Below are positions 1 to 27,153 of a stretch of 64,000 bases of DNA, piece after piece; position 1 is the stretch's first letter; each line of letters starts with the position of its first letter. The stretch lies in the NCBI GenBank assembly GCA_029531795.1, contig JAPEIS010000010.1, positions 744,001 to 808,000 of the forward strand, written 5' to 3'. This DNA comes from Sclerotinia nivalis (taxonomy: Eukaryota; Ascomycota; Leotiomycetes; Helotiales; Sclerotiniaceae). Under the pieces are notes generated by a model. The model did no database searches and was not told the origin of the DNA. It saw only the letters and a list, made by a program, of their open reading frames with translations. The position numbers and the translations under genes were made by a program.

Positions 1-493
1 TTCAGTTTCGATCTGTGAATCGGTTTTGGAAAGGAGATGGTCAGGAAGGTTGTATATCGCAAAATGGAGACAGCAGCGTTCGGTACTTTGTTGAGTATCT
101 CTGGATAGATATTCGAGAGGGATTTGCTGGTCTAATCAATCGCTAGATATGGTATCGCGTGAAAAGATTTGCTTGGGTTTCGAAAGCCCTGTAATGCAGA
201 GGGTAGGTCTCTAGATTAAATGAAGTTATCAGGATATGAGAATATGGATCTTTCGCAGAGGTTTCATTTTTCAATGATTGAAGAAGCTGCACGGAAGTTA
301 TTGATAAACTGGGCTGCCAAATTACCGAGTTCTACATATATCTTGTCCTGATGGGTATTACACTTTGATGTAATTTACGACGACTTCTACGCCACCAACA
401 AATAGTACGTACGATGCCCAAACGGTGTGGAATATATCTACTGTGCCGTGAAGTATTACGCATGATTGAGTTTCTAACCTGTTTACCACTATG
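1..493. other. non-coding stretch, nothing recognised
   Basis: No reading frame with convincing protein character, RNA gene or clear repeat was found here. It ends at the left target-site duplication of the retroelement that starts at 510. Confidence 0.5.
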
Positions 494-509
494 ATCATTG
501 GGTATATGG

Positions 510-595
510 GGAGGGCGAAGACTCAACACCTGTACGTGGTGCCCTCTACGAACCTCCAGCTCTCTATTGAGAGTCTGCAGAGCTAAGATTGAGTC
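510..595 (+). ncRNA. HDV-like self-cleaving ribozyme (predicted), copy A
   Basis: Nested double pseudoknot in the order expected for HDV-like ribozymes. P1: 510-516 pairs with 541-547 (7 bp, first pair G510.U547, the usual wobble at the cleavage site). P2: GACTCAA 520-526 pairs with TTGAGTC 589-595. P3: ACC 528-530 with GGT 538-540, leaving L3 at 531-537. P4: 554-564 with 569-582 (CTC/GAG, CAG/CTG, CTCTC/GAGAG, loop TATT). J4/2: CTAAG at 583-587, placing C583 as the candidate catalytic cytosine. Predicted cleavage lies between 509 and 510, exactly at the element's 5' end. HDV-like ribozymes at 5' ends of non-LTR retrotransposons (for example R2) are established; assignment here is by structure only. 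Confidence 0.82.
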
Positions 596-1515
596 ATTTG
601 ATGGAATCGGATACATTGGAAGAGAAAGAGAGAGTTTCCCGATTGCGATATTCACGATGGAAGGGTTATTACGATTTTACAGCATCAATATCTTCGAAAG
701 GATGAACGAATATCAACCCAAAATACGGACGATGGCTACAGAAGCCCTGGTTAGATTCAACATCTGCCATCGACTATTACCTCAATACAAGGTATGATAC
801 GCCTAGTAAATCCCTTCTATTCCAGAAGGGTCTTTTCGATATGGAATTTGCTATTGTTTTATTCGCATTTTATACCTTTTTTCGACAATCGACTATCGAA
901 AACACATTCATTTTAACACTACGATTATCACAAAACAGAGAATACTATCATCTATCAATTAATGTTATGCTCTAGGCATCGATACGATATTACGCCTTTT
1001 CCTCGATTTTACGAAAATATTTTTTGTATGTATATGGGTAGGGTTAGGGCCACGCCCCACTATCATTACATTCAAACGACCGATATTCCATTCGGCGATT
1101 TCGATTATTTACATTCAAATAAAGCTGGAGATCATCACACCTAGGAAGGCATGCAAAGGAGCTAATGAATGAGTTCGAGCTGAGGAGAATGGTACCTCCC
1201 AGTTGCTTTTCACTAGTATGAGGACCCTTTTGCTGTACTGGAGGTAATCTTGACGGAGATGACTCTTGACCTTTGTGGAAAGTGGGTATCGGAATAACAG
1301 ATTGGATCGAAGAAGAAGATTATATCAATAGGATGCTTTAATTAGCAAAGGATAGAGGGAGAACGAGAAAGGAAAGGTCTTAGAGGATAAAGATATCGGG
1401 CTTTGTTCCCCAGTATTAGTTTTCACTTGCCCTCAATCAACATTTCAAGGGTTGAAAAGAAACCCAAACTATACAAACTGTATACTAGCTAGCATACAAC
1501 TCCCCATAGCATCAA

Positions 1516-1571
1516 CTAGGAGCTCATAGAGCCCCTAGCCGTCCTAGATAGTCTTAGACTCAGTGTGGACG
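1516..1571 (+). other. 3'-terminal double hairpin of retroelement copy A
   Basis: Hairpin 1: CTAGG 1516-1520 plus GCTC 1522-1525 pair with GAGC 1529-1532 plus CCTAG 1534-1538, around a single A.C mismatch. Hairpin 2: CGTCC 1540-1544 pairs with GGACG 1567-1571 and contains an inner AGTC/GACT stem (1550-1553, 1557-1560). The AATC tail follows a few bases later. A 3' stem-loop just before the tail is the kind of structure LINE reverse transcriptases recognise; that role is inferred. Confidence 0.7.
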
Positions 1572-1840
1572 TTAAAATCAATCAATCAATCAATCAATCA
1601 TTGGGTATATGGATCTTAGTTCTATTACAACGGTTGGTTGGTTGGTTGGTTGGTAGGGAGCACATAAGATAAAATATGTATGTCAGATATCGACGTATAA
1701 TTATTTGAAGATAAAAGCCGTGTTTTGTTCTTCTCCCTTCAAAGTTCTTTTAATTCGAAACCAGTTTCACTCCTCTCACTTCCCGTCTCAGCTATTAACA
1801 AGTTTCCTCAATTTCCCCCTCTCAATCCACCCCAAACACA

Positions 1841-2824
1841 ATGCCCCGTCTCCCCTCGAAAACAGTATTCGTACTCGTACCAGGAGCCTCTCAATCCCCA
1901 GCCCACTATGGACTGCTAATGCATCTCCTCCTCACACGAGGCCATCCCGTCTATTCCGCCATTCTCCCCAGTACCGGACCAGGACTTGCAGCTAAAGATG
2001 TGACGGCGAAAGATGATGCCGAGTATGTGAGAGAACAGATGTTATTACCGATTTTGGATACCGAAGGTCATGATGTGGTTATGATCATGCATTCTTATAG
2101 GTATGTATATTTGATGTTTGTAGAAGTTAAAGGACCTTAGATTTATGGGAAGATTTGGGCTGGAGACGGAGGAAGATGGAGATTGATGGAGAAAATGCTA
2201 ATTTGAATGCTTAAATAGTGGTGTACCAGGAAGCGCAGCCGCATATGGTCTAGGTAAAAAAGATCGCGAGGCAGCTGGTAAAAGTACATCTGTTTTAGGA
2301 CAGACATACATTGCATCACTCTTGGTCAAAGGGGGTGATGGAGGGGATATCGTTACTGCACATGGTGGATCATTACCACCTCATATCCTCATATTACACC
2401 TGATGTAAGACCTTACGTTTCATATACTTTTCAGCTCTTCATCTCTACATCTCATCATTCTATTACTTATCTTCTAACACAAACCCACACACAGAAACCC
2501 AACGGGATCCTCACATGTGACGATCCCGGTCCACCCCTCTACAGCGACGTAACACCCCCGCTCTTCCAAGACGCCATCGTCATGTCCACCCTCTGTCCCA
2601 GTTACGCATCATGGCATAGTGCGTGTCCGCGCGCATCGTGGGATCAAGAGGCTTTTAAAGGGAGAATTGCTTTTGTGAGGACGCTTAAGGATACGGGGAT
2701 TCCGCTTGAGTATCAGGATTTGTTTCTGCGGGGAACGGGGGTAGATTGGATGGTGAGGGATGTGGATACCGGGTATAGTCCACAGCTTGTGGAGCCTGAG
2801 ATGATTTGTGAGGAGAGGAGATGA
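1841..2824 (+). pseudogene. alpha/beta-hydrolase (EstC/methylesterase-like), frameshifted
   Basis: Three exons: 1841-2100, 2219-2404 and 2495-2824 (introns begin GTATGT and GTAAGA and end TAG and CAG). The product resembles small alpha/beta-hydrolases of the salicylate/methylesterase-like group: N-terminal TVFVLVPGASQSPAHY oxyanion region, nucleophile HSYSGVPGS created across intron 1, and later ILTCDDPGPPLYSDV. Reading breaks in exon 2, where CCTCATAT is tandemly repeated (2379-2386, 2387-2394). The extra 8 bp shift the frame into a stop at the exon 2 donor; without them the frame runs on into exon 3. In addition, the usual catalytic-histidine motif GHSP reads GYSP (Tyr codon 2774-2776). Either fault should inactivate the enzyme. 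The hydrolase call is confident; pseudogene status could be strain-specific or an assembly error. Confidence 0.7.
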
Positions 2825-4119
2825 GAGAAAAGGAGAGGAGGGATGATTAGATTAGGTTATTATATTTAGGAGAAAAGTATGGAATTTTTGTTGTTGAATG
2901 GTCTATTAATTGATGAACCTTAAATTTGGTGATACACATGATGCGTTCGTTTTTAGGTAAATGATTCAATAACCAGATGATAAGTCTAGCTGAGATATAA
3001 ATGTTATTTTGATATCCGTACAAATGATAATTTTTAAGATATATAGGTGTTGGTAGTCACGTGTTCTTAAAGCACGTGCACTTCACTTAAGCGAAGGCTT
3101 CTATATGAGGCCGTCGCATCTTAGAGTTCCTTCGAACTCTATGCGCAATATAACCTTTTAAACATAAGGGGTCAATTGCGTAGCAAACCAAGCGCCCTCA
3201 CGGGATTACCGATTGTGAATACCTTCAATACGATCATAAACGTTTCTGATCATCTACGTCGATTTCGGTGGTCATACCGACAATAGGTAAAAAATATATC
3301 ACCGGTTATCAAATAGCTACTAGGCAAACATATTGAAAGAAATGAACAAAGACTAACAATATGCACAGTACTCCGTATATTTGTACCTATCTCCAGAGAT
3401 AGATAAACAGACGCCAAAACTTTAATTCCATATTAAAGAAAACTAAGCTATGCAAAACTACTAGTACCTCTTCTCCCAAAAACATTCAGTTCCTGATACA
3501 CATACCTCTTCTCCTCCACCTCCAAACCCGGGCCCATTCTTCATCTTCAATCATAACAACCATACAAATGTAAATGCAGAAGTGCGCGTAGATGCAGAAC
3601 ATACATGCGAGTAGGTACAGTAGTCTCTCAAAACAGTGGATCACCACAACAGCTAGCTCTACCCATCCATCCATTCAATAATCCCATCCCATCAAATCCC
3701 TTCCATTCTTTTCATCTAATCTACTACAAAAACACCAAATGTTGCAGTGGAGACTACACGGACCAGAACTTTTCTTCAAAATATCACGTGTAACCTTTCG
3801 AAATTCTTTAAATTTAGTACAAATCGAGAAATAATTGAATAAATTGAAAAATAATAAAAGTAAAATAATTATAAGAATTAGAGCTTTCAAATGATATAAT
3901 TATTCCTCCGGAGGACGAATTGCGAAGTAGGTTTTGAGATGCCGGACTCAAAGCTCGTTTCATAAACTCCACAAACTCCATATCCACACAACCCCACTTT
4001 CAATCTTCCCCTCCACCCAAAAAAAAAGACTTTCCCCCCGCTACCTCACCCATCCCCCCAAAAGACCAGCAACCACAAACCACAAACCCCAAAAACCCCC
4101 AAAAAACCAAAAAGAGTGT
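2825..4119. other. intergenic, AT-rich, contains structured-RNA candidate
   Basis: No protein gene recognised. Notable contents are two CACGTG hexamers (3058-3063, 3073-3078), a run of hairpins (see next entry) and one TACTCCGTA motif at 3369-3377. Short open frames near 3605-3890 are AT-rich and unconvincing. Confidence 0.5.
3058..3281 (+). ncRNA. candidate structured RNA of unknown family
   Basis: Consecutive hairpins occupy most of about 225 bp. CACGTG repeats 3058-3063/3073-3078. An 11-pair stem 3091-3101 with 3107-3117, one A.G mismatch. TAGAGTTC 3122-3129 with GAACTCTA 3134-3141, loop CTTC. CGCAAT 3144-3149 with ATTGCG 3175-3180, enclosing ACCTTTT 3153-3159 with AAGGGGT 3166-3172. GATCA 3232-3236 with TGATC 3247-3251. 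TCGGT 3265-3269 with ACCGA 3276-3280. Three of the pairs are G.U on the plus strand and would be A.C on the other, favouring plus-strand transcription. A TATA-like ATATAT lies near 3040. I recognise no tRNA, 5S, snRNA, SRP or RNase P/MRP signature, and no T-run terminator follows. Confidence 0.35.
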
Positions 4120-4225
4120 TTCCGAATCCGGGAATCGAACCCGGGGCTACTCGGACGAAGGCCACGTGACTTTTGATCACGTGGTTACTGAAAGCGAGTT
4201 ATGTTAACCCCTACACTAATTCGGA
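4120..4225 (-). tRNA. tRNA-Glu (anticodon TTC), with 34-nt intron
   Basis: On the minus strand the acceptor stem TCCGAAT (4225-4219) pairs with ATTCGGA (4127-4121), discriminator A4120. The D arm is GTGT/ACAT. The anticodon stem ACTCG (4199-4195) pairs with CGAGT (4153-4149); the anticodon loop after splicing is CTTTCAC with anticodon TTC at 4192-4190. The T arm is CCGGG/CCCGG around TTCGATT. A 34-nt intron (4188-4155) sits at the canonical position after base 37 and contains an inverted CACGTG pair. All stems pair perfectly apart from one G.U in the D stem. Part of this locus is duplicated in mutated form at 11158-11314. Confidence 0.93.
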
Positions 4226-4992
4226 TGGATGATTTTTGATGGAGGAGGGGATGGGGTTTGGGGATATATTTGGTGTAGTATTTGTTTGAAATGTGGGGAA
4301 AAGAACGACAAAGGAGGTCGCTCCTTATGCGTTCAAGCAGGTGGAGGGGAACGCATTAAATTTTGATCCACTGAAATTTGATTTTACCGATGCTACATCT
4401 CCTGTAACTAGTACATTCATTAGAGATATCATCAACTTATATCAATATCACAAATAAAATCTTCTACTTTAATTCTAAAGTCTATCGTATTGTTCCTTTG
4501 ATATTTACGTACGCCCCAATTAGTCCAAATACTTTACTTGGAATTCTGTATGAGAAAATTACAACTACAGCGAGCATGGTGGTGATTCAATCAAAGCACC
4601 TTGGATTCGGTTTTACCGGGGATTACGTCAGGTGATAAGTGGTGGGTTGGTCCAGCTGAGAAGTTTAGGATCATTGACCGCTTTAGAATATTCATATTTG
4701 AGGTATAATCAAGTAAGCAGTAATTAGTAACATCTATACTTTAACGCTACAAAGATTTGTTAGGTTATGCTTTTTCAAAATGTGATGATGATTTGTTGTT
4801 AGAGATGTTAAACTATAATATACAACTTTGTTATTGTTAGTATAGTATATTAGGTAATTCCATGATGAGTATGAGGATCTATATAGGCAAATTTAATCAA
4901 TTGCGATTCAGACTTTTATATTTTTGTTGAATCTGTGATGGTATGATTATATTTTTGCTTGTTGTGATGAGGAATAAAACGATAGAGATGTC
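4226..4992. other. intergenic, no gene recognised
   Basis: The first ~90 bp are the tRNA-Glu 5' flank shared with the RIP-mutated copy at 11226-11314. The remainder is AT-rich with no credible coding frame. Confidence 0.5.
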
Positions 4993-5450
4993 ATGCTGAC
5001 CCGGTCAACGTTCAAGACAGAGGAGAGAGCCAAAGCTTGGTACGAATATGTTGTGAAATATATGGAAGGTCCTACAGAAGATGCGCTGGATGCCCCTCAT
5101 TTCCCACCTGGCCTCCAATCCAAGATTGCAGGGTGGTTGCGACATTGAAAACCGTTTATTTGGGAGTGGGAAAGCTCCTGAATACTGCCAAAGGCCCGCG
5201 AGGCTCAAATGTCACCGCGGACATTGAATCTGTCTCTGTTCCAAGTGCGGATACTATCGAAATCACGACGTCCGGTGTAAACGAATTGAGAAAGTCGACT
5301 AGATCAAGAAGTGCCCGCAATCGAAAGGTTGTCCCAGAGAGCGACGAGAGTGAGGGTCAGAATGATGACCAGAATGAACAGGAAGATGACAATGAAGAGG
5401 ACGAGGATCTCGACGCAACTTTGGTTGCAGAGGAGGGAGTTGAAGAGTAG
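4993..5450 (+). pseudogene. unknown protein fragment with one frameshift, acidic C-terminus
   Basis: ATG 4993 opens a 51-codon frame with ordinary protein composition (includes RAKAWYEYVVKYMEG and HFPPGLQSKIAGWLRH) ending at TGA 5146-5148. The next frame, from about 5145, continues as LKTVYLGVGKLLNTAKG and runs to a stop at 5448-5450. It ends in a Ser/Arg-rich then strongly acidic segment (Asp/Glu/Asn/Gln repeats). One missing base near 5145 would explain the break. No family recognised, and the true 5' end is uncertain because the upstream DNA is AT-rich. It could be a gene relic, or a gene with an unrecognised splice. Confidence 0.4.
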
Positions 5451-6188
5451 TCAGCAGTCAATTTGAGGGACTGGAAAGAAAATCTTGTGTTATCTTGCTC
5501 ATATGGGTTATCAAATTGTTGCTACTAGACTCGAGGGTCGCCTACGGATATCATTCACCAGCTTATTAGCCAATATTCGGTAATTTTAAACATGAATGGC
5601 TTATGACTTACACAACCTCCGAGCTGTATGTACTCAATGCTTCAATATAATTCAATCGACTTATCAATACGTGCCATTGAGAGATTGATGACGAGGTAAG
5701 ATAGGATGACATCCCCTTACTTTTTGAGATATATTTGCGCCATCTGCGTCGTAAATCAACCCGAAGAGTGATAAGACACGTTTCTGATATTGACAACTAT
5801 TCAAGTATGGAGAAGCGAGCTTTAGTAACCAATCCATTGGATGAAAGCTTCAGACTGATGCAACTCCGCTAATTTCTGATCAATTTTAAACCACTGTCTA
5901 ATTCAAACTCTATACATTTATATCACTATACTCAGAATCCTGAACATATCCTATCTAACCCCAATCATTGATCAACCATTGTTTAATGCAAACTCTATAC
6001 ATTTATATTATTACATTCAGAATCCTAAATATATTCTATTTAATCTCAATCATTGATCAACTATTTTTTGTTTATATACTTTTATACTCCTCTGACCCAC
6101 ACTCCATACCTCCTCTGACCCAAGCTCCAACATCTGCCGGAAGTTCGGCAATCTCGAATACCATCTTGGCACTTAGACTTTTACAGAC
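5451..6188. other. intergenic, AT-rich
   Basis: A 55-60 bp segment is imperfectly repeated (about 5886-5965 and 5970-6065; both contain AACTCTATACATTTATAT and ATCATTGATCAAC). No gene seen. Confidence 0.45.
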
Positions 6189-7406
6189 TTACAAATTTGC
6201 CATGTATTCAGCCATCTCAGCTGCGGTCCTTTGATGTAAATCTTGTAAACGCCGCCGAAGAGGTGCTTCGTTGTCATTGGGGGTTGCTTCGTTATCAGGC
6301 GTCGATTCCTGGTCCATGACTTTCTTTGCTTTACCTTCGGAGGATGGCGCAGCCGTTGATCGGTGGGGTTGGGAGTTGGTGCGGTGGTGCGCCGCTTTTT
6401 GGTGGTATACTTGGCCTCTTCCTCTTGGGTTGTATCTGTACTTGGCCCAACAATTGATGTCGTCTCGTCATCGTCATTGTGGCCCAATACTCCTTCCAGA
6501 TATTCCAAAACCTTCTATAATTTGTCTCGATGCCCTTTAAGTTTGCTTTGCACAAATAAATGATTTATAATGAATATATACAAATAGTACATTTTCTCGT
6601 TTATTATGAATACATCCTGTTCCAAAGGGTTTGTAGAAGTTGCTTTTTGGAAATATTCAGTGAGTTTTTCCATTGTGAGAACTTTATCTACAAGGGGAAA
6701 CTCTTTATAGATATCGTTTATCCTTTTTTCTATATCAATCCATTCGGTTTTCGATTTCGCAAATAACATCTTTACTGCTTGTAATAGTGTATAGCAAACG
6801 ATAGTATAATCTGTTCTTCTTGGAAGTACATATTCATCCAAAAAATCTCCGATCTTATAAAGCTCTATCGGGATCTCCAAATCTTTTTTCTTCAATCTTT
6901 GGATCTCCTCTTCTTTCCTTCTGTTCTGTAATGCGCCTTTTCTTTGCAACTATTCGGAATTCCTCAAATAGATATAAACCCTATTCCTTGATAAATTTAT
7001 TGGCTTTGGTTATAGCCAAAGCTAATTCATACTAATTGTTCTCTATCAACTTCAAAAACGTATATACTGTCAAACTTTCTGTATGCTGGGTGATCTTAGA
7101 TATAGTTGTTCGTCCAAATAGATCACCTGTAGTGAGTTGTTCAATAAAATTATTGCTGGCAGCTGTGTCTAATATGACCGGTTCGATCATATCCAAGGAT
7201 ACACAATACTCCCCCCCTAATAACTTGCACCCCTTGAATTGTTGAGTTACTACCCAATTCAAGTACTTCCCACAGACATCCTTCATTTCTTTGATCTTCC
7301 TCTCATTATATCTCATTGTATCCAAGACCTGGTCGGAGTTTGTCTCCATATCTTCATAGTGGTCGCTTTCTGACGATATTGAACTAGATTGCGAACTCGA
7401 AAACAT
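6189..7406 (-). pseudogene. degenerate unknown gene with CAG-to-TAG stops
   Basis: A long protein-like frame on the minus strand begins at ATG 7406-7404 (MFSSSQSSSISSESDHYEDM) and is interrupted by TAG at 7034-7032, 6983-6981 and 6517-6515. In each case flanking residues continue smoothly if the codon were CAG (Gln), i.e. a CpA-to-TpA change typical of RIP. There are also frame changes near 6955 and near 6350; the last segment (QESTPDNEATPNDNEAPL...) runs to a stop at 6189. Helical, charged segments and a Thr/Pro/Lys-rich linker are visible, but no known domain. An upstream frame at 7657-7481 ending in a GTAAGT donor may be a former first exon, though its phase does not join cleanly. Confidence 0.5.
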
Positions 7407-7774
7407 CCGAAAGGGGGCGTGCGATCTTGCTAGTAATATACAGTAAGCCAATATTCGCATCATTGAGATCTGTCACTTACTTTAAGGTTGTCAAGGCCAA
7501 GGGACAAACTTGAGCTCCAACTCTTATACTTCAATGGTGGTTTGAATGTGTGATGTTGCGAGCAAAGAAGTCTGCTACTCCACTCAATGGGACAAATGTT
7601 AGGCGTGGCTCCAGCAGTTGACTCGTTTATTTGATTTCTGTATCCGAAATTATACAATAATGATGGTAGGATTTGGATATTATTTGGGGATGGGTCGAGT
7701 AAGGCTTTATATATGGTAGATCGAGTAATTATTTCTAGAATGTAGATCGAGCAACTCCTTATAGATTGATATAT
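7407..7774. other. flank of degenerate gene and of retroelement copy B
   Basis: Includes a possible former exon on the minus strand (7657-7481) and the AT-rich flank up to the left target duplication at 7775. Nothing else seen. Confidence 0.4.
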
Positions 7775-7787
7775 ATCACTTTCGCTA

Positions 7788-7880
7788 GGAGGACAAGACT
7801 CAACACCTGTACGCGGTGTCCTCTACGAACCTCCAGCTCTTTTATTTAATTATTAGAGTCTGTAGAGCTAAGTTTGAGTC
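7788..7880 (+). ncRNA. HDV-like self-cleaving ribozyme (predicted), copy B
   Basis: Same fold as copy A. P1: 7788-7794 with 7818-7824 (7 bp, G.U first pair). P2: GACTCAA 7797-7803 with TTGAGTC 7874-7880. P3: ACC/GGT at 7805-7807 and 7815-7817. P4: CTC-CAG-CTCT paired with AGAG-CTG-GAG, with a longer AT-rich loop. J4/2: CTAAG 7868-7872. Compared with copy A, one P1 pair is A7793-T7819 where copy A has G515-C542, a compensatory double change. Other differences fall in L3, J1/2 and the P4 loop. Confidence 0.82.
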
Positions 7881-8571
7881 ATTTGATGGAGTCGTGGTGA
7901 TTGGAAGAGGAAGAGGCACCCGATCGCGATGTTTTTTGCCTCCGAGTTGGTTGATGGCAAAGACCAGATCTCGGTTTTTTGACAATTGTATTATCGGATT
8001 GTGCTTTCTATAATACTATTTTTATTACAAAACAAAGGACAACATCATCATCTATGATAATATATTACAAAATCATCTCCAAGATCTTTTTAAAGCATCG
8101 AACACGATTTATCAAATTCGGTTTTAAGGTTCAGGCCTTACCTCTTTCGATTCGAATCGAAACAACAACAATTCATATACTTGGAGGAGCTACGTGGAAC
8201 GACCCGAGCTAATGACGTATCTGCCATAGAATTCGGTGGAGGATATACTACATATAGGATTGGAGCACCTTGTAGGATCAATATCCCTATGGTTTGGAGG
8301 GTTCTATGAAATCGATATTAGGCAAGGCATGACCGCTGGGAAGTTACGAATAGGACAAAGAGTTGATGTGAAGGAAGGTTGTTTGGATTTGATTGATGGA
8401 AGGATCGGATTTGGAAAATCATAAGTGTAATACTTTGATTGGTATTTTTATCTTTATATGCGATACCGTATAGAGGTCGGGCTTTGCTCCCCAGTATTAG
8501 TTTTCACTTCCCTCATCAAAAATATATACAAACCTATATGCTATTTAGATAGCACTACCCATAGCCATCTA

Positions 8572-8628
8572 TTAAGAGCTCGATTGAGCTCTTAACCGTC
8601 CTAGATAGTCTTTGACTCAGTGTGGACG
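8572..8628 (+). other. 3'-terminal double hairpin of retroelement copy B
   Basis: Hairpin 1: TTAAGAGCTC 8572-8581 pairs perfectly with GAGCTCTTAA 8586-8595. Hairpin 2: CGTCC 8597-8601 with GGACG 8624-8628, inner AGTC/GACT. Relative to copy A, the first and fourth pairs of hairpin 1 changed on both sides (C-G to T-A and G-C to A-T), and the A.C mismatch of copy A is a proper A-T pair here. Confidence 0.7.
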
Positions 8629-8854
8629 TTAATTAAATCAATCAATCAATCACTTTCGCTAAATCCACTTCGAATTCTTTCCTAGTCACGTGATCATGTA
8701 GTGATGTTCCGTATCATCAAAGTGAATTTTAAAATAAATAATTGCTATTTTAGTTGCCGAGGGAACTGATATTTGAGAAAATTTTATCCGCTTGCAACTT
8801 CATCCATCTTCCTAAGAGTTATTCACATCTGAAACAGGTGTAGTGATACGAAAA

Positions 8855-10017
8855 ATGACTTCCAACTCCAGTGGCCAATCGTTGGCAAGAGAACCGGCAG
8901 CACCCTCACTGGTAATACAAATCTATTCCTTGACACCAAGGATTCAGTTGCTAACGTGTTATCAAGGATTCACAGCGCAATCAAGACATATCCCAAGGAA
9001 TAATTGATGGGCTCATTCGGGCTCGTTGTGGCCGCGAATTCCCTCAAATAATCAAACTCCTTGATGAGCAACCCAATACCACTACATTAAAAGATAGGCA
9101 GAAATTGTGTGAGATTCTACATGAACACAGAGACGATCAATTCCAAAAAATCCAGACAGAAGTTGCGAGATCTGCAAGTCTTTTCAAAGAAGCTAAGGAG
9201 GTTAATGGAATAGCGAAGCGCGCAGAGGAAGATATATCTGCCAGTGAACGAGCTGAAGGCGAGAAAGCTCTTAGTTTGGTGGCGCTTATAGAAGCATCGC
9301 GTCGTCATTTCTCTATAAATGACAAGAAATTAAACTTGTTGACGCTTATGGTGAGTTGTCCATTGAGCTCTTTATACATATATATATGTACTAACTACTA
9401 TGTGGCAGCGGGCTTTTGAAGCAGAAGCGCGTGTCACTTTAGCCAATTTGACTAGAGTGTGTGAAACTTTGGAGAGAGGAGCGCCGCCAGTTCATGCAAA
9501 ATTACTAGCAACACTTGGCCAACTACCACGATCTGTTAACTGGCCTATGATGCAAACATTGGTCAATCGTCGGGAAACTATGTTTGGTGAAATTCTCAAG
9601 AACCAGGATAATTTCCAGGAATTTGTTTGCACTGAAGGGTACACACCATTTACTACCAGGTTCACAGAAATGATGAGAGAAGGTGAGACATCTATTGAGA
9701 GAAGAATTGGGAGGTTTCTGCCAGACCCTGAGGAAGACAAGGCTCTTGTTGGTGAAGACTCCACTAGCAGCACGCGCGGTGGCAGTCCAGATGTCAAGGG
9801 TGGTAGTGATGGCAACGGCAGTGAGGATAGGGATGAAGAGAGCGATGAAGAGAGCGATGAGGACGACGATGATAACAATGGTAAAGATGGTGAAGCTGAA
9901 GAAATTTTGGTTCAGCTCCAAATTCGAGGAGAGCTTGAAAGTCAGTTTGAGGAAAACGCGCAGAGCGATTCGGAATCAGATACCTCTATCGCTTCTTCGA
10001 AAGGATTGGCATCTTGA
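8855..10017 (+). CDS. unknown protein, acidic C-terminal region (3 exons, 349 aa)
   Basis: Exons 8855-8911, 8967-9350 and 9409-10017; introns start GTAATA and GTGAGT and have CTAAC branch sites at about 8951 and 9391. All three join in frame. Residues 20-147 are Gln/Glu/Lys-rich and probably helical (REFPQIIKLLDEQ; EEDISASERAEGEKALSL). Residues 148-265 look folded (RAFEAEARVTLANLTRVCETL, a Trp-Pro pair, YTPFTTRFTEMM). From about residue 280 a Ser/Gly/Asp/Glu linker with repeated DEESDEE precedes a final acidic Ser-rich tail. No signal peptide or membrane segment, so probably cytosolic or nuclear. I recognise no family. The gene is intact although it lies between retroelement copy B and RIP-damaged DNA. 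The start is the only ATG giving a spliced continuous frame. Confidence 0.75.
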
Positions 10018-24153: not shown

Positions 24154-27153
24154 ATGGTACAACAAGGAAAAAAGGGTAACGACCTTCCCAACGGCGGCAC
24201 AAAGTACAGAGAGCAATCAGCAACCATGACTTCGCAAAGAAGAGATATGGGAGATGCTCGAGGAAATGGTATGGGAAAGGCGGATGGCAGATCGCAAAAT
24301 GGTTCGTCATTCTATATCCAACCAATGGCATCACAAAATCTAACCTTTTCAGGCAACTCAAGTTTCTTTCGTACAGATGCTGCGATTTCTGGCAACCGAA
24401 ACCAAGGAGAGCGTGTATTGCAAAAATGGGTTCCTGACAAGCCCTCCGATACCGATGGCTCCTTGGAAGGAGGTCGAGGAGGAAGAGTTGCTCCTTGGGA
24501 TCAGTTTGCAGAGAATGAGCGACGATTCGGCTTGAAGACAGATTATGATGAGAACATTTACACAACTCAGATCAACACAAACCATCCGCATTACGCGCAG
24601 AGACTTGCCGAAGCAGATAGGAAGGCTAGAGAAATTGAACGTAGCACAGCAATGAACTCTCATGTTGCAGAGGAACGCATTGCGGATCACATCGGATCGA
24701 ATGAGAATGGACTTGACGAAGAAGACAAGTAAGTTTTTTGGGTTCTTTTATTTTACAAACAATGCTAATATATAGGTAGATACAGTGGTGTTCGCAGACA
24801 ACAGGATTTCCCACCCCTTACCTCATCGAAAGGTGCATATCAACCACCCGGAAAGCGTGCTCCTGTTGAACGTGCTCCTGTTGAACGTGCTCCTGTCGAT
24901 CGTGCTCCTGTCGATCGTGCACCCGCAGCTGCCCCAGTTGCTGCACCCGCGGATCGTGGTCTTGTTGATTCAGCCATCATGTTTGCAGGAGCGAAAGCCG
25001 ATAAACCAGCAGATAAGGTAAAACCAGCTGCAGCTGCGAAGTCAGCAAAATCAGAGGTGGCAACCCCACCGACTACCACCGAGTCGAGCACCACTCCTAC
25101 TCCCGAGCTTAAAGTTTCTGCGGCTCCTTCTGCAAGTCGCACAGTCTCCCCACAAGTCAAGGCTACTGGTGGACCCAATGCTACGGCAACTGTTGAGGCT
25201 GATGTATCCAAGGCTTTCAGGAACTTTGCCGCTAATCAGCGAAACAATATCCAGCAAATTCGCATGAACAAAGCCAAGAATGACAAGCAAATCAAACTCA
25301 ATGACCTGAAGAGGTTTGCGATCGATTTCAAGTTGAACACTCCAGTTCCATCGGATCTTGTTCCTATCATTGCCAAGGATCCTGCGAAGCAAAAAGCAAT
25401 CCAGGAGAAAGCACAACGCAATGCTGAAGAGGCAAAGCTGCATCCTGCTGATTCGGTCAAGCCAATTACACCAGGTACGGATGGGAACGCTGCACAACGT
25501 TCCTCTACTACAACCACTCCTCATACTACATCACCACCAGCCGCTACACCTAGTCGCCAAAATGTTAATCGTGGTCCTTATCCTCCAGGTAGTCACAGTT
25601 TTACACAGAATTCTCGAGGCGATAGACCTGTTCAAGCACAGCAGACCATGCCCCGAAGCGGCACAGCCGGAAATTTGGCCCAACGATTAAGAACCCTCGA
25701 ACAAAATAGGCCCGCTCAAGTACCATCGAATGTGATGCCAGCTCATGAGGCTAGACTTCCTCCCACCGGTCCCTCGAACACTGTTGACCCGAACTTCTCC
25801 CGTCGTTCAAGTGGCGTAACAAGTGCTCAAGGTGGTCCAAGATTGAACGCCAGCGTCAGCGAATTTCGCCCAAATGCATTCGCAAAAGATTTTAGTCCGG
25901 CTGGTAATCCAAGCAGTGGTTCAAGTCCTCGTTCAATGGCCAATGCTCCAGAGGCTCAATCAACAACACCCGTCGCACGTTCTTTGATTCGTCGTAAGCC
26001 ATTGGCAAAGAGCGCTCGCCCTTCACTCAAAGGCAAATATGATGCAATGGAGCTCATTAAGACTCTCAAGCCAGGAGATGGAAAGAACTGGAGCGCAAAT
26101 GGTGGTTTAAAGCCAGCCTATGATACCCATTTGTTATGGAAGTTGAGTGCCAACGGTGCCCCCACGGAGTCTTACGTCCAAATCTTCGAAAAGGCACCAT
26201 TCCCCACTACAACACCAGTTGTTTCAGAGCCTCACCCACCACAAGCGGCTCCACAAGTACCACATCAACATCAATTACCATTCCACCTTCAATCTGGTGT
26301 ACACAACATTAACGCTAGACAATCCCCACGTCAACCACCAATCAACATGCATGGAGCTCAAATGGGTCACCCCACCCCAACTTTCAGTGGTCCTGATGAA
26401 ATGCGCATGATGCCATCGCACTCTGCACAATCATTCTCATCTCCAAGAATGCAACAACTCCCAATGGCATTCCATTCTCCAATGGGTGCAAATGCTCAAT
26501 TAGCCTACAACCCACAGATGGTACCTTACCCAGGTGCACCTCAAATGCAACCATTCAGATCCCTTTCTCAAAACCATCAATTCATGCCACAGCAGGGACA
26601 TATGGGTCAACCAATTATGATGCCTAACGGGTTTTTGCCTCCACAAGGAATGGCACCTGGCCCACAAATGATGTATCCACCTGGTGCACAAGGTCAATTC
26701 ATGCCGCCAAATAATGGTCATCCTCCAGCTATGCCAAATGGCGGTTATCCAAGTCCTGGTCGAGGTGCTCCGATGATGATGAATCAAGGTTCTCAACAAG
26801 GTCATCCACAACCTATGTATGGTATGAGTCCAGGTCCTCAGTACGGCAATGTAGCACCAGTCTTCCCTCAACCAATTCCAAATCAAAGTAAGTTCAATAT
26901 TCCAGAAAACATTGCAATTGATTCTAATACAACAATAGTGCCAATGCGAGGTAGTTATGGAGGACCAAACCCATACGCTACAAGCCCTCAGAATCTTCAA
27001 GGGGGTCCAAGAAATCAGTATAACCCAAATTCATCGGATTACATCAACAAACCAAACTACCGACATGGTCAACACCCACATGGCCCACCAAACAATCAAG
27101 TTCCTACTGGTCCTCAAGCTCAAGCTACAGTTGGAGCTGATGAGAGTAAATGA
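24154..27153 (+). CDS. PBP1: Pbp1/ataxin-2 family, LsmAD and PAM2 (5' end incomplete)
   Basis: Exons 24154-24301, 24353-24728 and 24780-27153, about 965 aa. Ataxin-2/Pbp1 binds poly(A)-binding protein and acts in mRNA polyadenylation control, stress granules and translation. The N-terminus (MVQQGKKGNDLPNG) resembles the middle of the family's LSm domain, followed by the conserved GNSSFFRTDAAISG and ERVLQKWVPD. The LsmAD domain spans ~98-190 (WDQFAENERRFGLKTDYDEN; YAQRLAEADRKAREIE; GVRRQQDFPPL). A PAM2 motif lies at ~530-540 (LNASVSEFRPNAF). The rest is Pro/Gln/Met/Asn-rich and disordered; a 15-nt tandem repeat encodes RAPVE/RAPVD units near 24860-24920. TTGTCAG before 24145 looks like a 3' splice site, so an upstream exon probably exists. 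The first intron is 51 nt and frame-neutral. Confidence 0.85.

Follow-up and report, generated by a model that had tools for sequence, protein, structure and literature searches.

A predicted HDV-like ribozyme as shared 5′ head of LINE and SINE-like retroelements in the fungus Sclerotinia nivalis

Among retroelements without long terminal repeats (non-LTR retroelements), R2, R4, L1 and RTE carry hepatitis delta virus (HDV)-like ribozymes that cleave at or near the 5′ junction, and the same source also cites a fungal HDV-like ribozyme of Webb and Luptak (PMC3774820). Several ribozymes of the trypanosomatid NARTc, RIME and SIDER elements are active in vitro (PMC4035085). For fungi, Li and Breaker (2017) reported 230 HDV-class ribozymes in 26 species, 11 of them known before; in vitro cleavage was shown for fungal variants, and their gene associations vary widely (PMC5640933). 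The main text of that paper contains no word starting with retrotransposon, transposon or SINE (short interspersed element). In literature searches covering mostly titles and the openings of abstracts, we found no HDV-like ribozyme placed on fungal SINEs or long interspersed elements (LINEs); Webb 2009, Webb and Luptak 2011 and Ruminski 2011 could contain cases. Here, we describe SINE1, a repeat at one end of a 64,000-nucleotide stretch of Sclerotinia nivalis DNA (assembly GCA_029531795.1, contig JAPEIS010000010.1, positions 744,001 to 808,000; henceforth termed the window). It begins with a predicted HDV-like ribozyme that also heads the autonomous element LINE B, and it ends with the tail of a different element, LINE A. 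We consider it highly probable that SINE1 and two related families, SINE2 and SINE3, are ribozyme-headed non-LTR retroelements whose RNA trims itself and, where the tail is that of LINE A, is copied in trans by the LINE A protein.

SINE1 is a non-autonomous element of 1,087 base pairs (bp) at 510–1596 of the forward strand, a delimitation supported by its flanks and by full-length copies elsewhere in the genome. An exact 16-bp repeat, ATCATTGGGTATATGG, borders it at 494–509 and 1597–1612 on the same strand, as the initial annotation had proposed for the target-site duplication; since its first four bases, ATCA, are also the unit of the element's tail, the duplication measures 12–16 bp. The absence of coding capacity noted in that annotation was likewise borne out, as no stop-to-stop open reading frame (ORF) of at least 120 amino acids overlaps the element in a scan of the window. 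Two forward-strand segments, at 1398–1440 and 1517–1596, are each 88% identical to LINE A, and the second, terminal one ends in (ATCA)n.

The fold predicted for positions 510–595 (+) is a nested double pseudoknot in which P1, P2, P3, P1.1 and P4 stand in HDV order, with a predicted cut at 509/510. The initial annotation had described this structure as complete, and helices, the J4/2 segment CUAAG and C583 can all be traced in the sequence. P1 is formed by GGAGGGC at 510–516 and GCCCTCT at 541–547 (7 bp, the first pair being G·U), and P2 by GACTCAA at 520–526 and TTGAGTC at 589–595 (7 bp). P3 (528–530 with 538–540) and L3 occupy 528–540, P1.1 joins 532–533 to 548–549, and P4 extends over 554–580 (554–564 with 569–580), interrupted by one C·C mismatch and one bulge. 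C527 could pair with G541, but the latter is taken by P1, so that P3 has 3 bp and C527 stands unpaired between it and P2. The predicted catalytic C of J4/2, C583, is invariant in the 17 chosen rows of the alignment discussed below. P4 is a long hairpin in the SINEs and 6 bp long in LINE B.

We condensed the fold into a descriptor consisting of a 7-bp P1, a P2 of 6–7 Watson–Crick pairs, a 3-bp P3 and C-N-A in J4/2. On the forward strand of the window it matches twice, at 510 and 7788, each the 5′ end of an element. The reverse strand gives two chance-like matches, at 26479 and 8320, and 60 first-order Markov windows searched on both strands gave 12 matches, or 0.2 per window. The sequence around 8320 (−) lies in the body of SINE2 and recurs at locus L064; it resembles P1, P2 and P3, has no conserved core and looks like chance.

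The match at 7788 heads SINE2, a second ribozyme-headed family at 7788–8648 (+), 6.2 kb from SINE1. Its predicted HDV-like ribozyme covers 7788–7880 (+) with a P1 of GGAGGAC/GTCCTCT, and by eye it is flanked on the forward strand by ATCACTTTCGCTA at 7775–7787 and 8649–8661. This duplication is up to 13 bp long, its first 4 bases being again equal to the tail unit. The window copy is 94% identical over 867 bp to a copy at L027; a genome search in which the best 40 of 174 candidates were scored may include other families among the candidates. SINE2 (~870 bp) and SINE1 have head and tail in common and differ in the middle.

A sequence match to the SINE head led to LINE B. Its open frame of 1,270 residues matches endonuclease and reverse transcriptase (RT), with an RNase H match just below the cut-off, and its best matches among solved structures are the LINE-1 ORF2p and R2 proteins. 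LINE B begins exactly with the ribozyme, directly after the duplication TGAAAACTGGCTC. When all 37 candidates of a 5′-end search were scored, 31 of the 36 matches other than the query itself, some of which are heads of the L099, L100 and L103 type, started at query positions 37–42, with 20 at 40, the predicted first base. The outliers are two that start at 33 (L086 and L091, which have similar upstream flanks) and three of SINE1 type at 45. SINE3, found at L110, combines a LINE B-type P1 and a SINE-type head with a LINE B-type tail and is flanked by the duplication TGTTCATGAAAAA, one more G being assignable to either side. P1 thus starts at the first base of the element in SINE1, SINE2 and LINE B, and within one base of it in SINE3. 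L100 and L108 carry another LINE B-like 5′ end, in which P2 differs. At L109 a SINE3-type head is followed by SINE2-like sequence and later by a second partial SINE2-like piece, an arrangement that appears broken or nested.

These families are mosaic in their make-up. The 3′ tails of SINE1 and SINE2 are that of LINE A and the tail of SINE3 is that of LINE B, while the several hundred bases of the SINE bodies match neither LINE. The ORF2 of LINE A encodes a protein with APE-type endonuclease, RT and RNase H, and by this set of domains we take both LINEs to belong to a Tad1-like clade. LINE A was considered as donor of the head and rejected, there being no descriptor match in L061 and L062, two copies that by eye look complete with duplications. 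Among the other LINE A 5′ ends, 37 of 39 start at query positions 51–64 and the remaining two at 24 and 41 (best 40 of 114 candidates scored). The descriptor also found no match in L067 or in L066 (Family C, ~1 kb of which reads N). A third type of LINE, whose frame of 1,265 residues gives equal RT scores, is spread over several small contigs (G000 C19–C22, C26, C9:2637091 and C16:866943); its copy L066 is the one partly reading N.

We searched the source assembly (50.3 Mb, 31 contigs) for SINE1 and scored the best 40 of 464 candidates, which yielded at least 44 matches; of these, 41 span 1,080 or more of the 1,087 bases. The full-length set holds 44 distinct copies, every one starting GGAGGGC; 14 of these, together with two further heads, came from a search with the ribozyme as query. 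Copies are scattered over many sites with differing duplications, and a script recovered an exact duplication of 13–16 bp for 33 of the 44. One copy lies nested in opposite orientation inside a more diverged SINE1 (L018, G000:C5:1120738-1122926), and two others stand in tandem, 12 bp apart (G000:C4:623459-625636). With the P1 3′ strand left free, a search for the ribozyme core finds 125 sites genome-wide (56 on the forward and 69 on the reverse strand), against 0 for the reversed pattern. Among 100 listed core sites the P1 3′ strand takes four hexamers: CATCCT (LINE B, SINE3), CCCTCT (SINE1), TCCTCT (SINE2) and, once, TCCTTT. The SINE1 tail has 80 exact sites and 428 at up to two mismatches, the latter including LINE A and SINE2. 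For 67 of the 80 exact sites a core lies at 1,020–1,021 bp on the same strand, a pairing made with the 78 core sites left after SINE2-type rows had been dropped from 100 listed of 127. Full-length copies therefore prevail among those seen, as expected if the 5′ end of the RNA is set by cleavage. Such a predominance is unusual for non-LTR parasites.

Conservation of the fold was assessed in an alignment of 17 chosen rows (A2), which omits near-identical or more decayed LINE B copies as well as three SINE2 rows in which MAFFT had shifted P1, so that SINE2 is represented by L107 only. In this alignment 96.2% of the paired cells are able to pair, compared with 29–45% when partners are slid by 1–3 columns. 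The initial annotation had made its reading depend on P1 and P2 pairing being kept across copies, and it is: 99.2% of paired cells in P1 and 97.5% in P2, with P4 at 90.8%. Eight pairs are doubly changed (pairs 3, 4, 5 and 6 of P1, pairs 3 and 5 of P2 and two in P4), and P3 and P1.1 show no double change. The covariation score of 0.270 compares with 0.163 in shuffles and is reached by 0 of 500; eight doubly changed pairs are matched by 12 of 500, and the 19 further pair types, reached in 207 of 500, do not exceed shuffles. These values include a LINE B2 row that is misaligned in P2 and P4 (by eye GACTCT/AGAGTC) and was counted as aligned, which lowers the score; the letters of its catalytic region are AGCTAAG. 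All 17 rows have G·U as the first P1 pair. Pairs 3, 4 and 5 of P1 are G-C, A-U and U-A in most LINE B rows and in the SINE3 rows and A-U, G-C and G-C in SINE1 and SINE2, a mixed pattern that one-way decay cannot explain, although it may represent only one or two events. Across all heads compared, P1 (7/7), P2 (7/7) and the catalytic C are jointly intact in 39 of 46 for SINE1, 4 of 5 for SINE2, 2 of 2 for SINE3 and 24 of 31 for LINE B. P1 is fully paired in 46/46 SINE1 heads, a set biased by the recruits of the ribozyme query, and the C is kept in 46/46 SINE1 and 5/5 SINE2 heads.

From these features we infer a cycle in which a host transcript would run through an inserted copy, and the ribozyme would fold co-transcriptionally and cut just 5′ of base 510. 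The resulting RNA would carry a 5′-OH and begin with the first base of the element. Its LINE A-type 3′ tail could then recruit the endonuclease–RT–RNase H protein of LINE A, and target-primed reverse transcription into new sites would produce 13–16 bp duplications, full-length copies and a fixed 5′ end. LINE B, being autonomous, would apply the same head module to its own RNA.

The term SINE fits SINE1 in part. The element is short, ORF-less and flanked by duplications and shares its 3′ tail with a LINE, which are the features of a SINE. A tRNA-like head, on the other hand, was not found by a tRNA search of window positions 1–9000, and each of the 44 copies has two or more runs of at least five T within its first 1,000 nucleotides; for these two reasons an origin from an RNA polymerase III transcript seems unlikely. 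A 5S or 7SL head is excluded solely by a missing Rfam match. SIDE-like (after the short internally deleted elements, SIDEs, of Drosophila) or SINE-like non-autonomous retroelement is therefore the safer label.

Several observations weigh against a ribozyme that is functional and under selection. In the 44 SINE1 copies, 1,662 of 1,791 non-majority letters are C-to-T or G-to-A, a bias that in ascomycetes is the mark of repeat-induced point mutation. As decay here takes mostly this form, some of the double changes could have arisen without selection; seven consist of two transitions and one, P1 pair 5, of two transversions, and the change at P2 pair 5, seen in L086 only, is probably decay on both arms. 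The rows of A2, which we chose, are related, so that the double changes reflect few events. Across 30 loci selected by whole-element score (ribozyme-query loci were selected by ribozyme identity), SINE1 copies diverge by 0.8% over bases 1–91, by 2.7% over 92–1000 and by 0.2% beyond; because the 3′ end is equally low, we do not take the 5′ value as proof of selection, and an effect of decay at the edges may account for it instead. The predicted catalytic C is replaced by T in three of the 31 LINE B heads (L090, L094 and L096), and a further LINE B head, L098, has no ribozyme core; all four stand outside A2. The remaining 13 exact SINE1 tails have no partner among the listed cores; four have no match to the compared sequences and nine still match the SINE1 body 140–270 bp upstream, in one case over a stretch of just 21 bases, which indicates that some truncation or decay exists among them. 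Base −1 of the window copy is G, as in 9 of 44 copies, and G at this position is unfavourable for HDV-type cleavage. The descriptor missed the SINE3 head of L110, whose P2 contains G·U pairs. Rfam 15 returned no HDV-family match, either in the 64-kb window at gathering level or in positions 1–2400 at E ≤ 10, and the two weak microRNA matches it gave were taken as chance. Since published fungal variants also escaped earlier descriptors (PMC5640933), we do not regard an Rfam match as a defining feature; the case for the predicted ribozyme rests on covariation and position.

Three other explanations can be set against self-trimming. The pseudoknot might be kept for binding of a LINE protein, for the 5′ junction or second-strand step, or as a DNA promoter, with cleavage weak or absent. 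Pr77 of trypanosomes is described as both promoter and ribozyme, and the fact that one head occurs with tails indicative of two distinct LINE proteins can be read in the same direction. A fold that serves protein binding, however, need keep neither the predicted catalytic C, which is present, nor the position of the first pair, which coincides with the element's edge in SINE1, SINE2 and LINE B and lies within one base of it in SINE3; we consider this explanation improbable. Still less credible, in our judgement, is an ancestral ribozyme that is now inactive, the elements spreading through other 5′ processing while mainly C-to-T mutations erase the ribozyme. The mutational bias and the four defective LINE B heads fit such a relic, but P1 in all SINE1 heads, and P1, P2 and C together in most, have escaped erasure in the biased set given above, and pairing must have been under selection in the past to give the paired changes seen from one family to another.

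A repeat that merely happens to fold in HDV-like fashion is the least plausible of all, to the point of being negligible. The two chance-like reverse-strand matches illustrate that the descriptor can be satisfied by accident, and most of the paired changes are double transitions. Against this, the forward-strand matches mark solely the two element starts at a background of 0.2 per Markov window, the same fold caps LINE B exactly, and slid partners pair far less often than the aligned ones. Self-trimming followed by copying through LINE A remains our preferred account.

In the window itself, SINE1 has the orientation of the next gene-like frame, whose ATG lies, by eye, 245 bp downstream of the element. 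A (GGTT)n run at 1632–1654 stands between the two. The gene-like frames of the window are, also by eye, interrupted by introns, which together with the mutational bias points to a fungal genome.

Beyond this locus, we lean slightly towards a broader view: the HDV-like ribozyme would be an exchangeable 5′ module, present on one autonomous LINE and at least three non-autonomous families with the tails of two LINEs, and many of the variably associated fungal HDV-like ribozymes may likewise be retroelement 5′ ends. If this is true, a parasite may join the ribozyme trimming of one LINE lineage to the copying machinery of a LINE that has no ribozyme, and ribozyme-headed non-LTR elements extend to fungi. 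The fungal HDV-like ribozymes, whose gene associations vary widely, would gain a likely role, and the fixed 5′ end of long SINE-like elements that have no known promoter would be explained. With head (ribozyme) and tail (RT recognition) separated by evolution, the role of each in retrotransposition would become testable.

The initial annotation called the family undescribed. The location of the ribozyme on fungal LINEs and SINE-like elements, the LINE with the same head and the swapping of tails do seem new, whereas the kind of element is known from other hosts (PMC4035085, PMC3414825), as are HDV-like ribozymes from fungi (PMC5640933). The published fungal variants share with SINE1 an extra nucleotide, mostly C, between P2 and P3; they typically place a C-G pair at the cut site and form an E-loop in P4 (PMC5640933), where SINE1 has G·U and an ordinary helix. 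LINE B is predicted to resemble R2, R4, L1 and RTE in cleaving at its 5′ junction, but the R2 elements described in PMC3774820 are animal ones and LINE B is a fungal element with a 1,270-residue frame. The R2 and R2/R1 SIDEs of Drosophila likewise combine an HDV-like ribozyme head with a LINE 3′ end, and the R2/R1 hybrids have their head from one LINE and their tail from another, as do SINE1 and SINE2; for the hybrids, 14-bp duplications are described and use of the tail donor's machinery is suggested (PMC3414825). Those SIDEs insert in animal ribosomal RNA gene loci (PMC3414825), whereas SINE1 and SINE2 are numerous and dispersed and have bodies unmatched to either LINE. An R2 SIDE proper is recognised by R2 sequence and a 28S target; here the insertions occupy many sites and LINE A is of the endonuclease–RT–RNase H type. 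The trypanosomatid NARTc, RIME and SIDER elements are alike in being short non-autonomous relatives of LINEs with an HDV-like ribozyme at the 5′ end (PMC4035085), and SINE1 and SINE2 differ from them by joining a LINE B-type head to a LINE A-type tail.
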